Shown here piece after piece: positions 27,820 to 31,978 of a stretch of 64,000 bases of DNA. This DNA comes from Lysobacter silvisoli (GTDB lineage: Bacteria > Pseudomonadota > Gammaproteobacteria > Xanthomonadales > Xanthomonadaceae), in NCBI RefSeq assembly GCF_003382365.1, contig NZ_QTSU01000002.1, positions 310,001-374,000 of the forward strand, in the 5' to 3' direction. The notes under the pieces are model-generated. The model had not been told where the DNA came from, made no database searches, and was given only the letters and a program-made list of their open reading frames with translations. The first letter of the stretch is position 1. Each line of letters starts with the position of its first letter. The translations under genes were made by a program, and so were the position numbers.

Positions 27820-28740
27820 ATGAGCCGACTCGCCCTCGCCACCGCCATCGCCGCCACCGGAACCGACACCGATATGGTGCCGCTGCTCGACGCCTGCGCA
27901 CGCGCCGGGCTGTCGGCGGACGTGCGCGCCTGGGACGACCCCACCGTGGCCTGGTCACGATACGACGCCGTACTGCTGCGTTCGCCCTGGGACTACACCC
28001 AGCGGTTGCCGGAGTTCCTGGACTGGTGCGCGCGCGTGGACGCGCAATCGCGCCTGCTCAATCCACTGGCGGTGGTGCGCTGGAACACCGACAAGCATTA
28101 TCTGGCCGACCTGGCCGCGCGCGGCGTACCGGTGGTGCCCAGCGCCTTCGTCGAACCCGAAGGCGAGGAACCGTTGCCCGCGCTGCAGGCCTTCCTGGCT
28201 ACGCACGCCGACGCCGCCGAATACGTGGTCAAGCCCACCGTCAGCGCCGGCTCGCGCGACACCCAGCGTTATTCGCGCGCGCAGGAATTCGCCGCCGCCA
28301 ACCACATCGCGCGCCTGCTCGACGCCGGTCGCAGCGTGCTGCTGCAGCCGTACCTGGCCTCGGTCGACCGAGATGGCGAAACCGCGCTGCTCTACTTCGA
28401 CGGCGTCTACAGCCATGCCATTCGCAAAGGCGCCCTGCTGCGCCCCGACGACGGCGCCACCGAGGCGCTGTTCGCGCCGGAGCAGATCGTGGCGCGCGAA
28501 CCCGGCGACGACGAACGCACGCTGGCCCAGCGCGTGCTGGAAGCCGCCGCGGCCGCGCTGAACCTGGACGCACCGCTGCCCTATGCGCGCGTCGACCTCA
28601 TCCGCGACAGCGACGGCGCGCCGCGCCTGCTGGAGCTGGAGTTGTGCGAACCCTCGCTGTTCTTCCCGCACGGCGAAGGCAGCGCCGACCGGTTCGTGGC
28701 GGTGCTGCAGCGGGCCATAAAAATCAGCGCCACATCCTAG
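27820..28740 (+). CDS. ATP-grasp domain protein of unknown substrate
   Basis: A 306-residue cytoplasmic protein of ATP-grasp fold, distantly like glutathione synthetase and RimK. The pattern includes an N-terminal pre-ATP-grasp domain (RYDAVLLRSPWDYTQRLPEF), the lysine of the ATP subdomain (AEYVVKPTVSAGSRDTQRY, about residue 135), and metal-binding residues near the end (LPYARVDLIRD ... LLELELCEPSLFF). ATP-grasp enzymes join a carboxylate to an amine or thiol; no substrate can be read here. No partner gene is adjacent. Its TAG stop shares the palindrome CTAG with the stop of the convergent gene that follows. Confidence 0.75.
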   Translation: MSRLALATAIAATGTDTDMVPLLDACARAGLSADVRAWDDPTVAWSRYDAVLLRSPWDYTQRLPEFLDWCARVDAQSRLLNPLAVVRWNTDKHYLADLAARGVPVVPSAFVEPEGEEPLPALQAFLATHADAAEYVVKPTVSAGSRDTQRYSRAQEFAAANHIARLLDAGRSVLLQPYLASVDRDGETALLYFDGVYSHAIRKGALLRPDDGATEALFAPEQIVAREPGDDERTLAQRVLEAAAAALNLDAPLPYARVDLIRDSDGAPRLLELELCEPSLFFPHGEGSADRFVAVLQRAIKISATS

Positions 28741-28940
28741 GAAACCTCCAGGACAGCGCAGCAGGTGTCGTCATCGGTGGCCGTCCAATCTTGCGGATTA
28801 TCGTTGAGCTTTTCAGCCTGCAGCTTGTCGTATGGCCCACGTCGCAGCAACACCTTGAACTCGACCCCAGCGTGCTCAAGAGCATTTTCTTTTGCTCTTA
28901 CTTGTTCCTTTTTTCCAGTGAAAATCATGATCCTGGACAT
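28737..28940 (-). CDS. Small hypothetical protein, 67 residues
   Basis: Unrecognised. MSRIMIFTGKKEQVRAKENA begins the protein; it is mixed alpha/beta and charged, with no signal peptide, and ends TCCAVLEVS. A good Shine-Dalgarno (AGGGGG) precedes ATG 28940. The gene starts 20 bp after the stop of the lipoprotein gene upstream, so the two probably form one operon. Codon use is less G/C-biased than that of neighbouring genes. The stop overlaps that of the convergent ATP-grasp gene by 4 bp. Confidence 0.6.
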   Translation of the reverse strand: MSRIMIFTGKKEQVRAKENALEHAGVEFKVLLRRGPYDKLQAEKLNDNPQDWTATDDDTCCAVLEVS

Positions 28941-28960
28941 TGCTGCCCCCTAGCAAAAGA

Positions 28961-30310
28961 TTATCGAGTCGCTTCTGCGAGACGATTTGCCTCTGATGTG
29001 GTCAATTTCGCCACCACCACCCTCATGTCGGACAAGCTTTTGACAGCTAGGAAATCAAGCCGATCGGTGTGCGCAAGCGGCACCCCGGCCTTTGCCGCCA
29101 GCGCATCCAACCTCACCGCGTCGAGCTTACTACCCTGCCCAAAGTAGGCCCAAAGCATGTCGCTTTGATCAGCTATGCCTTTTTGATAGGCCGATTGAAA
29201 CTTCGACACCAAAGCGTTGTATTCCGCCTCCTCGCTTTCGGCCTTAGCTCTCTGCGTCTGCGCCAGCTGTTTAACCAGGCCCAGGCATGCATCGTAGAAC
29301 TCCTTGTCCCCGTCTCCTATCTTCAGGCCGTTGCGAAGACGAACCACGCAGGTCATCTCGATCTCGTTGAAGTCATCGCTCTGACGCACGATCTCCAGCA
29401 CCGTCTGCGCGATCTCCCTACCCGCCGCCGGCGCGTTGTTATGCGCCGAACTCGCCGCACCCCACGCGGCCACCAAGGCCTCGCCCTGCCGCTGCAACGC
29501 TGTCGCTAACGTTGCCTGATATGCGGCAGCTTCCTTGTGCGCAGCAGCCGCACCATCGGCCGCATCGCATTTGGCCTTCTTTTCCTTGATCTGCGCATCG
29601 GTGACGGCTCCGCTGGCGGCTTTCGGCGCGCTCGCGCATTCGCCTTCGGGCGCCTGATCGAATGCTGCCTTGGCCGCGGCCGCGCTGGCCTTCTTGGCAT
29701 CGGCCTCGCGCTGACGCGCGCCATCGAGCAGCTTGATGGTTTCTTCCGTGGTGCCCGCGTCGGTGGCCTTGGCCAGCGTGGTCAAGGCGGTGGACTGCGC
29801 GCGGGCCACGCCGGTGATCTGTTCGATCGCCAGGATATGCACCATCGCACGCTGATCGCGCGCGGCCTGCACGATGAACTCGTCGGTACTGACCGCACCG
29901 CTGAGATAGCGCTCGCAATTGCGGAACATCGCCTCGCGCAGGATGTTGATCGTCTGAGTGCGCTCGATGGTCGCTGCATTTTCCGACAGGGCGTGTTTGA
30001 TCTCCCCGCTCAGCGCCTGGGCTTTGTCGGCCGAGAACGTGGCTTCGGCCCCCGCCGAAAGGCTGGTAGCCAAGGCCGTGAACACATCCGGCGGTGGCTC
30101 CGAACAAAAGCGGCGATAAGTCTTGCCATCGACGGGCTGACCCATCGCGCTGATTACGTTGCGTTGCTTCGCGTCGATGCTGAGGATGTGCGCCCGATTA
30201 CCCCAAGGCGTCGAGCTGCGATGTATCGACGTCGCGCACCCCAACAGGGCGCAAGGCAGCAGGATCCATAGTAAAGCGCGAATAGCGGCGATATGCCGAC
30301 GGCCGTCCAT
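28961..30310 (-). CDS. Hypothetical lipoprotein, helical, 449 residues
   Basis: Not a family I recognise. It has a lipoprotein signal (ALLWILLPCALLGC, lipobox LLGC) and a mature part that is mostly helical, with Ala/Lys/Glu/Gln-rich stretches (about residues 190-275: EAKKASAAAAKAAFDQAPEG). Six to eight cysteines occur, including FCSEPPPD, NCERYL and TCVVRLRN. No enzymatic motif is visible. SD AGGGGAAGG precedes ATG 30310. It is in an operon with the 67-residue gene at 28737. Its GC content is clearly lower than that of the flanking genes (by eye 55-60%), which suggests recent acquisition. Envelope location is inferred from the lipobox. Confidence 0.7.
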   Translation of the reverse strand: MDGRRHIAAIRALLWILLPCALLGCATSIHRSSTPWGNRAHILSIDAKQRNVISAMGQPVDGKTYRRFCSEPPPDVFTALATSLSAGAEATFSADKAQALSGEIKHALSENAATIERTQTINILREAMFRNCERYLSGAVSTDEFIVQAARDQRAMVHILAIEQITGVARAQSTALTTLAKATDAGTTEETIKLLDGARQREADAKKASAAAAKAAFDQAPEGECASAPKAASGAVTDAQIKEKKAKCDAADGAAAAHKEAAAYQATLATALQRQGEALVAAWGAASSAHNNAPAAGREIAQTVLEIVRQSDDFNEIEMTCVVRLRNGLKIGDGDKEFYDACLGLVKQLAQTQRAKAESEEAEYNALVSKFQSAYQKGIADQSDMLWAYFGQGSKLDAVRLDALAAKAGVPLAHTDRLDFLAVKSLSDMRVVVAKLTTSEANRLAEATR

Positions 30311-30565
30311 AGCCTTCCCCTATGCTGGCAGCGTTGTCGTCCATGACCGACCAGGGATGGGATTCGTCAGTACCGCTCAGATCTGCACGAATTCGCGTTC
30401 GCCCGTATCGGATCCCCCGCGCTTGGATTAACCCAGCGCGGGAGGCTTGACAAGCGATCGGCGATGAACGGTAGGCCGGGCGCGCAAGAAGCGCGCAAGC
30501 CGAACATATGTTTGACGCGAAAACGGTGGCGCACCGGACAAATTCGCCGCGCCACTGAGCTGGGG
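30311..30565. other. 255-bp gap upstream of the lipoprotein operon
   Basis: No gene seen. It contains an imperfect hairpin CGCGCTTGG/CCCAGCGCG (about 30418-30440) without a T-run, and AAGCGCGCAAG direct motifs near 30487. The promoter of the lipoprotein operon and the end of the manC transcript must lie here. Confidence 0.4.
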
Positions 30566-31978
30566 TCAACTGCGCCCGTACACATCCTCGAGCCGGACGA
30601 TATCGTCCTCGCCCAGGTAACCGCCGGACTGCACCTCGATCAGTTCCACCGGCTCGCTGCCGCGGTTGCGCAGGCGGTGCACGCTGCCGCGCGGGATGTA
30701 GGTGCTCTCGTTCTCGCGCAGTTCGAACACGCGTTCGTCGCAGGTGACCTCGGCCACGCCCGAAACCACGATCCAGTGTTCGGCGCGGTGCTCGTGCTTC
30801 TGCAGGCTCAGCGCGGCGCCGGGCTTGACCACGATCTTCTTGACCTGGAAACGCGGACCCACGCCGATGGAGTCGTAGCTGCCCCAGGGGCGGTAGACCT
30901 TGCGGTGGAACAGGTGCTCGGTGCGGCCGGCGGCCTTGAGCTGATCGACGATGATCTTGACGTCCTGCACGCGGTCCTTGCGCGCCACCAGGGTCGCGTC
31001 GGCGGTGTCCACGATCACCAGGTCCTCGACGCCGAGGGTGGCGATCATGCGCCGGTCGGAGGCGCGCACCAGGCTGTCGCGGGTGTCGACCGAGATCACG
31101 TCGCCTTCGTGGCGGTTGCCGTCGGCGTCGCGCTGCGCCACCGACCACAGCGACGACCAGGAACCGATGTCGCTCCAGCCGCAGCTTACCGGCACCACCG
31201 CGGCGCGGTCGGTCTTCTCCATCACCGCGTAGTCGATCGAATCGCTGGGACTGGCGGCGAAGGCATCGGCGTCCAGGCGCAGGAAATCCAGGTCGGCGTG
31301 GGCGGCGTCGAAGGCCGCGCGCGCGGCGGCGTGGATCGCCGGCGCGCGTTGCGCCAGTTCGTCCAGGTAGCTGCGCGCGCGGAACAGGAACATGCCCGAG
31401 TTCCAGGCGTAGGTGCCCTCGTCCAGGTAGCGCTGCGCGGTGGCCAGGTCGGGCTTTTCGACGAAGCGCTCGATGCGGTAGCTGTCCTCGCCCAGCGCCG
31501 CGCCGCGCAGGATGTAGCCGTAGCCGGTTTCGGCGTAGTCGGGGCGGATGCCGAACGCGACCAGCCAGTGCTCGTCGCCGAGCCGGCGCGCGGCGGACAC
31601 GGCTTCGCGGAACGCGGCCTCGTCCTCGATCAGGTGATCGGCCGGCATCACCAGCAGCAGCGCGTCCGGGTCGCCGGCCAGCGCGTGCAGGGCGGCGGCG
31701 GCGATCGCCGGCGCGGTGCTGCGCGCCACCGGTTCCAGCAGGATGCCGCCGCTGCGCACGCCGATGGCCTGCAACTGCTCGCCGACCATGAAGCGGTGAT
31801 CGTCGGCGCAGACCGTGATCGGCGGCTGCGCGTCGGGCAGGGCGTTGGCGCGCAGCACGGTTTCCTGGAACAGCGAGTGGTCCCCGATCAGCGACAGGAA
31901 CTGCTTGGGTTGGTTCTGTCGCGAAAGCGGCCACAATCGGGTACCGCTACCGCCGCTGAGGATGACCGGGTGCAACAT
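30566..31978 (-). CDS. manC: Mannose-1-phosphate guanylyltransferase / mannose-6-phosphate isomerase
   Basis: Bifunctional enzyme (XanB/AlgA type, 470 residues) making GDP-mannose for surface polysaccharides. The nucleotidyltransferase signature GGSGTRLWPLSRQNQPKQFL begins at residue 9, and FVEKPDLATAQRYL and WNSGMFLFRA follow. The C-terminal type II PMI/cupin domain includes YRPWGSYDSIGVGPRFQVK, HEHRAEHWIVVSG and YIPRGSVHRLRN. In Xanthomonas, xanB serves both xanthan and LPS. Its position 2.5 kb from etfB and close to the O-antigen locus suggests that it supplies GDP-mannose (or GDP-fucose/rhamnose precursors) to that locus. No xanA or gmd is in the window. Confidence 0.93.
   Translation of the reverse strand: MLHPVILSGGSGTRLWPLSRQNQPKQFLSLIGDHSLFQETVLRANALPDAQPPITVCADDHRFMVGEQLQAIGVRSGGILLEPVARSTAPAIAAAALHALAGDPDALLLVMPADHLIEDEAAFREAVSAARRLGDEHWLVAFGIRPDYAETGYGYILRGAALGEDSYRIERFVEKPDLATAQRYLDEGTYAWNSGMFLFRARSYLDELAQRAPAIHAAARAAFDAAHADLDFLRLDADAFAASPSDSIDYAVMEKTDRAAVVPVSCGWSDIGSWSSLWSVAQRDADGNRHEGDVISVDTRDSLVRASDRRMIATLGVEDLVIVDTADATLVARKDRVQDVKIIVDQLKAAGRTEHLFHRKVYRPWGSYDSIGVGPRFQVKKIVVKPGAALSLQKHEHRAEHWIVVSGVAEVTCDERVFELRENESTYIPRGSVHRLRNRGSEPVELIEVQSGGYLGEDDIVRLEDVYGRS

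Follow-up and report, generated by a model that had tools for sequence, protein, structure and literature searches.

A low-GC lipoprotein gene and its small partner in Lysobacter silvisoli: a mobile pair with a possible role in phage exclusion

We analyzed a stretch of 64,000 nucleotides from Lysobacter silvisoli (contig NZ_QTSU01000002.1, positions 310,001 to 374,000; here called the window) that contains two genes on the same strand, 20 bp apart, encoding a lipoprotein of 449 residues and a protein of 67 residues (Table 1). The initial annotation, made from the sequence alone, had described these two open reading frames (ORFs) as an island of lower GC content in which each gene has its own ribosome-binding site, and the description holds on each count. 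The lipoprotein gene is preceded by GGGGAAGG and the small gene by AGGGGG, and the island, 1.57 kb long, has the lowest GC content in the window (60.4% compared to 69.0% window-wide), with 0.08% of equal-sized segments falling below it and the next lowest separate stretch at 65.0%. GC at third codon positions (GC3) is 0.733 in the lipoprotein gene and 0.603 in the small gene, compared to 0.873 to 0.957 in the eight neighboring genes for which it was computed. The small gene converges on an ATP-grasp-like gene, and the 3' ends of the two overlap by 4 bp (positions 28737 to 28740), a detail absent from the initial annotation. Roughly 100 bp upstream of the lipoprotein gene, probably a regulatory region, are better conserved than most coding sequence when compared with G015, the one other genome of the genus that carries the island. 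No sigma-70 consensus promoter was found within positions 28600 to 30600, and no phage gene was recognized by eye in the immediate flanks of the window copy.

Table 1. Features of the two-gene island and its flanks, with positions counted from the first nucleotide of the window
Feature	Position	Strand	Basis or remark
Flanking ATP-grasp-like gene	27820..28740	+	Assigned by eye, no Pfam match; convergent with the island
Small partner protein, 67 aa	28737..28940	-	ORF, alignment of relatives, Shine-Dalgarno (SD) site, model, dN/dS
Ribosome-binding site of the small gene, AGGGGG	28946..28951	-	
Lipoprotein, 449 aa	28961..30310	-	ORF, family alignments, AF2 model
Variable, fast-diverging C-terminal region, residues 321-449	28961..29350	-	Starts with Cys321 and includes Cys342
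Best-conserved part, residues 44-170	29801..30181	-	Mean pairwise identity 54% over 15 loci
Upstream region, probable regulatory region	30311..30414	-	About 93% identical to G015 (sliding identity)
Ribosome-binding site of the lipoprotein gene, GGGGAAGG	30313..30320	-	
Inverted repeat, 11 nt, 91% complementary, 5-nt loop	30416..30442	.	Near the upstream edge of the island
Flanking manC-type gene	30566..31978	-	Nucleotidyl transferase and mannose-6-phosphate isomerase domains

The larger protein carries a signal peptide (residues 1 to 24, assigned by eye) and the lipobox LLGC at residues 22 to 25, with Cys25 as the lipid-attachment residue and alanine at the +2 position. By inspection rather than by a predictor, the lipobox cysteine is present in 39 of 40 aligned relatives, where it is followed by Ala (27), Ser (7), Gly (3), Asp (1), or Thr (1). 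The residue after the lipidated cysteine is used to predict sorting to the outer membrane (the +2 rule), and by this rule the residues found here suggest an outer-membrane destination. It is strongly supported that the protein has a lipobox and a +2 residue of outer-membrane type. Cys69 and Cys132 occur in all 40 relatives, Cys321 and Cys342 in 38 each, and Cys225 in 20, all of them within the first 22 alignment rows; the conserved cysteines may be joined in disulfides. Conservation falls steeply toward the C terminus, with a mean pairwise identity of 17% for residues 331 to 449 over 15 loci. The window and G015 lipoproteins are 71% identical overall, 81% over residues 1 to 320 and 43% over the rest. 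In four homologous pairs, dN/dS of 0.07 to 0.25 indicates purifying selection on residues 1 to 320, and in all four the dN of the C-terminal region exceeds that of residues 1 to 320. The C-terminal regions of four close pairs nevertheless remain 42 to 81% identical, with no swap for an unrelated domain. The AF2 model (mean pLDDT 78, pTM 0.50) comprises a β-rich N-terminal part, with four strands in residues 30 to 70, followed by long helices and a compact helical C terminus, whose residues 401 to 449 reach block-mean pLDDT values of 95 to 98.

For the small protein, a structure model of modest confidence (pLDDT 72, pTM 0.55) predicts a β-α-β-β fold. Read by eye rather than by a predictor, the protein has no visible secretion signal, so that it is probably retained in the cytosol, in contrast to the exported lipoprotein, and the two are probably active in separate compartments. 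Periplasmic immunity is no more likely a role for it than that of chaperone, regulator, or cytosolic antitoxin. Small genes were located at 29 loci (28 in relatives and the window's own). Sixteen of the partners, 63 to 82 residues long and from different lipoprotein subgroups, can be aligned over their full length and share a layout of N-terminal strand, helix, second strand, variable loop, and hydrophobic C-terminal stretch (e.g., YCLVLEV, YVLVARI, or FVALAYK). A second set of 43 to 52 residues (L041, L055, L058, L061, L066, and L073) looks distinct and is tied to the other partners by position and size alone. The window protein is 29% identical to its G015 counterpart. The small gene has a dN/dS below 1 in all four homologous pairs tested (0.37, 0.14, 0.80, and 0.20), where the value of 0.80 is weak evidence alone and the dS of 1.9 for the window pair is near saturation.

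Pairing of the two genes was scored at 52 deduplicated loci, from which 2 at a contig end were removed, leaving 41 long forms (at least 400 aa and not at a contig end) and 9 short forms. A small ORF with an SD core lies directly downstream of 27 of the 41 long lipoprotein genes, compared to 19 of 267 control genes (7%), which were the other genes of the same loci as called by a simple script, some of them in the wrong frame. The corresponding Fisher p value (~1e-16) is uncorrected for relatedness and overstated, because some of the loci are close relatives. Among the 27 picks, those at L015 and L065 are doubtful and that at L036 is in the wrong frame (a correct one exists); the partner at L049 was missed in scoring, and L044 and L049 look like a separate class. 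Three of the 9 short forms also scored, with ORFs that are unrelated. An SD core precedes 28 of the 29 hand-picked small genes, compared to 24% of shuffles, the start codons having been picked by hand. Over 15 loci, identity between partners is correlated with identity between lipoproteins (Mantel r = 0.71 for residues 44 to 170, 0.64 for the middle, and 0.62 for the C-terminal region; p = 0.0001 in each of the three tests). These correlations fit common descent and do not mark out the C-terminal region as partner-linked. A search with the partner profile gave matches in 3 of 101 genomes, all already represented in the profile, and no partner without a lipoprotein appeared in this sample. Among the neighboring genes listed, none besides the partner recurs widely as a third member. 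High-GC DNA gives many chance ORFs, and the small ORF could in principle be one of them, the island then being a compositional quirk around a single lipoprotein gene; given the excess over controls, the SD sites, the dN/dS values, the alignable partners, and the positional counterparts in other genomes, we assign this reading a negligible probability. It is strongly supported that the small gene is real, that it is found with most long forms, and that the two proteins diverge together.

The ATP-grasp-like gene is present in all 20 genomes of the genus. In 18 of these it is followed by manC, with some 60 to 610 bp between the ends of the two alignments, a gap too short for the island, which is therefore absent from them; in the window's own genome (G000) and in G015, manC lies beyond the island. 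As in the window, GC3 of the G015 island (0.739 and 0.746) is below that of its flanks (0.863 to 0.919 in three genes). Trees of two flanking genes place G000 outside a group formed by G015 and the island-free G011, G012, and G013, with branching inside that group differing between the two genes, which implies either a single gain and subsequent loss or independent acquisitions at a shared site. Between G000 and G015, dS is higher for lipoprotein residues 1 to 320 (0.83) than for the flanks (0.29 and 0.41), an excess that could also stem from codon bias being weaker in the island. Elsewhere in the genus, G001 holds a distant member of the lipoprotein family at another place, beside a creD-like gene, and also a partial duplicate that adjoins the full ATP-grasp-like gene on its upstream side (L097). 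G015 has a second, short member (L017:8167-8877) about 3.4 kb before a gene with GH19 and peptidoglycan-binding domains.

Beyond the genus, an alignment scan of public genomes brought the lipoprotein family to 47 loci, from 66 pattern matches, while a single-protein scan of the same contigs found no relative. With the own genome counted, a 7-row profile matched 14 of 397 genomes of the order, and a 40-row profile matched 10 of 369 in the class and 17 of 398 in the phylum; many of the matches are short forms, and several of the weakest, which cover the coiled coil only, are possibly false. Relatives of the pair come from records named as Gammaproteobacteria, Alphaproteobacteria, and Betaproteobacteria and from one Desulfuromonadales metagenome-assembled genome (MAG); the first and third relatives to carry a name are Lysobacterales/Lysobacteraceae MAGs. 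The GC content of the pair, measured over the small gene and the preceding 1.5 kb, is below that of the rest of the locus at 24 of 28 partner loci. Matches among plasmid records numbered 13 for the window lipoprotein, all below 60% identity and at 24 to 33% coverage, and 1 for the L066 protein. Presence in all relatives at the same locus with host-like composition, which the initial annotation had named as the outcome that would speak against it, is thus far from what was found (2 of 20 genomes, both with atypical composition). Two of its further suggestions are supported too: that the two genes are a functional pair agrees, as regards pairing, with the contrast between long forms and controls and with the correlated divergence, and that the larger product is an envelope protein agrees with the lipobox and the conserved cysteines. 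An inhibitor or immunity role for the small protein, which it raised by analogy, is no more than a possibility. The mobility and the pairing of the two-gene module are well supported.

Neither window protein has a convincing match in Pfam, NCBIfam, PADLOC, or PHROGs or by fold, in line with the initial annotation, which had recognized no family. The best family-library match was DUF5089 (E = 0.024, below its cutoff), and no family of PADLOC-DB 2.0.0 was matched by either protein at E values up to 10. Among the models listed for 40 lipoproteins, none was common to more than 5, and the best was of coiled-coil type (E = 2e-4); 16 partners had no Pfam match at E values up to 1. Sequence searches of the PDB returned coiled-coil or chance matches (best SMC4, E = 7e-4). 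By structure, the lipoprotein model matched AhlB best in the PDB (Foldseek E = 0.41) and a viral model at E = 0.06, with VIA Z scores of at most 8.7 and an rmsd of 17.9 over 171 residues, within the range for helical proteins; the small protein reached E = 0.12 at best and a VIA Z score of at most 4.5. Such weak fold matches are no proof of a new fold in either protein. The motif CAEPSPD and the module as described were not found in the literature searched. As far as these library scans and literature searches reach, the pair is unnamed.

In polymorphic toxin and immunity modules, a conserved N-terminal part is joined to a variable C terminus and a small gene follows directly downstream. The window pair shares all three features, and one could read its N-terminal part as displaying a variable C-terminal effector against which the small gene provides immunity or an antitoxin. 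The higher dN of the C-terminal region in four of four pairs and a directly downstream gene that diverges along with that region would fit. So would weak leads to α-pore-forming toxins, namely, the AhlB match and a match of the NheB model to 1 of 40 relatives (E = 0.0035, in a coiled-coil protein), although helical coiled coils could explain both; the helical body of the window protein invites comparison with Ahl-type toxins or BAR-type folds, at the E value of 0.41 given above. However, the family libraries revealed no toxin domain in the window lipoprotein, the C terminus diverges gradually in the closest pairs, divergence of the partner tracks the N-terminal part at least as well as the C-terminal part, and here a lipoprotein is coupled to an apparently cytosolic partner lacking a visible secretion signal. 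On balance we regard a toxin of this kind as improbable. Less probable by far is an intracellular toxin-antitoxin-like pair in which the lipoprotein signal is incidental. Tight gene order would suit such a pair, as would VapC/PIN and antitoxin-like genes in the vicinity of L080 (annotated) and of L071 and L073 (by eye), but a lipobox cysteine in nearly all relatives, a +2 residue that is mainly alanine, and the conserved cysteines argue against it.

Relatives were found in 12 distinct viral contigs (the individual runs returned 9 loci, the L114 contig alone, none, and 7 loci, 3 of them new), while five queries against 50,697 phage records gave no match. On the L114 viral contig, a complete pair lies on the opposite strand at 51% GC within a stretch of 69.5% GC, flanked by tail and connector genes at one end and by an endolysin gene and two phage genes with weak matches at the other, which is the arrangement of a phage moron. 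In Vibrio sp. Of7-15 (L066), a pair is found downstream of repressor, Cox-like, and CII-like genes, a setting that reads as a P2-like prophage. On a further contig with antirepressor and integrase genes (L121), a small gene follows a frame-broken lipoprotein gene. Short relatives, which in these contigs lack a matching partner, also have phage and defense genes as neighbors. On a phage-like contig with portal and head genes (L122), a Gabija-like pair (L122:1863-4719; GajA, E = 1e-214; GajB, E = 5e-130) lies upstream of a short relative and ends some 1.2 kb before it; others have as neighbors a PDC-S20 gene and a tape-measure gene (L117) or PDC-M45A, PDC-M45C, and endolysin genes (L116), and one follows terminase and portal genes on a contig that we read as P2-like (L115). 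Neighbors were scanned in 7 of the 12 viral contigs, chosen by eye, and 6 of 10 neighbors scanned in four viral loci matched PADLOC models, a proportion that, the genes having been picked by eye, we do not offer as an enrichment. The viral relatives beside defense genes have no matching partner, so these neighbors bear on the lipoprotein family and not on the complete pair. Taken with the surveys above, it is strongly supported that the pair is sparse, compositionally atypical, and found in phage and prophage settings.

An alternative hypothesis is that the lipoprotein serves envelope maintenance or niche adaptation, in a structural or stress-related role, with the partner regulating or chaperoning it, and that the pair has spread horizontally with no link to phage exclusion. 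After the lipoprotein genes of L014 (7241-8893) and L016 (6196-7560), a gene for a creD-like membrane protein, assigned by eye, takes the place of the small partner, suggesting a physiological role for some members; at L014, response regulator and sensor kinase genes lie upstream of the lipoprotein gene (by eye). Many chromosomal loci lack recognized defense or phage genes, phage genes having been sought there by eye with a minority of neighbors scanned, and the purifying selection on residues 1 to 320 would also suit such a role. A sparse distribution, the lower GC content in 24 of 28 loci, carriage by phages, and the defense-gene neighbors of relatives weigh against it, and we consider this alternative unlikely, if still a serious contender. 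Other neighbors were observed at single loci or in small groups: one and the same module, a protein of 124 to 152 aa with a large protein that looks ATPase-like by eye, close to the pair in two different genomes (L037:9631-12723 and L046:3520-7896), a 995-aa ORF about 0.4 kb after the pair (L012:4710-7697) that looks like an α/β-hydrolase by eye and has no Pfam match, and hydrolase-like genes, again by eye, near L071 and L078. Hydrolases of GH19/M15 type near L017, L055, L058, L070, and L116 raised the idea of a lysis cassette, which was rejected, as they occur at few loci and in some cases more than 3 kb away.

Carriage on the opposite strand of a phage and the defense-gene neighbors of short relatives fit exclusion at the level of the envelope, as does a conserved N-terminal part with a fast-changing C-terminal end combined with outer-membrane-type sorting; it is from such features that we infer the job of this mobile, paired, envelope-directed module. 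We therefore put forward, as a tentative reading that may well prove wrong, that the pair is mobile envelope cargo with a dedicated small partner, phage exclusion being the leading candidate for its function. The two genes would form a self-contained cassette that moves horizontally. The lipoprotein would sit on the periplasmic face of the outer membrane and hinder the entry of rival phages or of other mobile DNA, in the manner of superinfection exclusion, with the fast-changing C-terminal region as its variable working part. The cytosolic small protein would be its dedicated chaperone, regulator, or antitoxin; it may steer the lipoprotein, hold it in check, or control it until it is exported, or it may contribute to the same process from within the cell. 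A more specific version of the proposal, which we hold to be doubtful, is that of a Proteobacterial phage-exclusion system in which a lipoprotein of the outer membrane, its C-terminal head variable, travels as prophage or island cargo together with a tiny, co-changing cytosolic partner, and of which the lipoprotein-only phage forms are a stripped version. Among cargo carried by phages, the combination of a lipoprotein with a co-diverging small partner is unusual, and the 29 small genes provide material for direct tests of exclusion. Should exclusion fail, the pair would still be a cleanly delimited unknown envelope module.

Among known systems, Llp of phage T5 is a phage-encoded superinfection-exclusion protein with a lipoprotein anchor. 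SieA of phage P22 is a phage-encoded superinfection-exclusion protein of the envelope, according to PMC10883804. Like both, the family described here is predicted to lie in the envelope and is carried by a phage or prophage in relatives L114 and L066, and it shares the lipoprotein anchor with Llp. It differs in that our searches gave no sequence or fold match to them, in the larger, coiled-coil window protein with its small partner, and in that exclusion is here only predicted. A second comparison is with the P2-like phages of E. coli, whose gpA-gpQ region (replication gene A to portal gene Q) is described in PMC9122126 and PMC9519451 as an antiviral hotspot with old, tin, and other genes as cargo. 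The window pair differs from such cargo in having no PADLOC match. PMC9519451 names "a lipoprotein" among its systems, and the present family was compared with it through the PADLOC scan alone. The likeness lies in position: the L115 relative follows a portal gene, and the L066 pair is in a Vibrio prophage with P2-like regulators.
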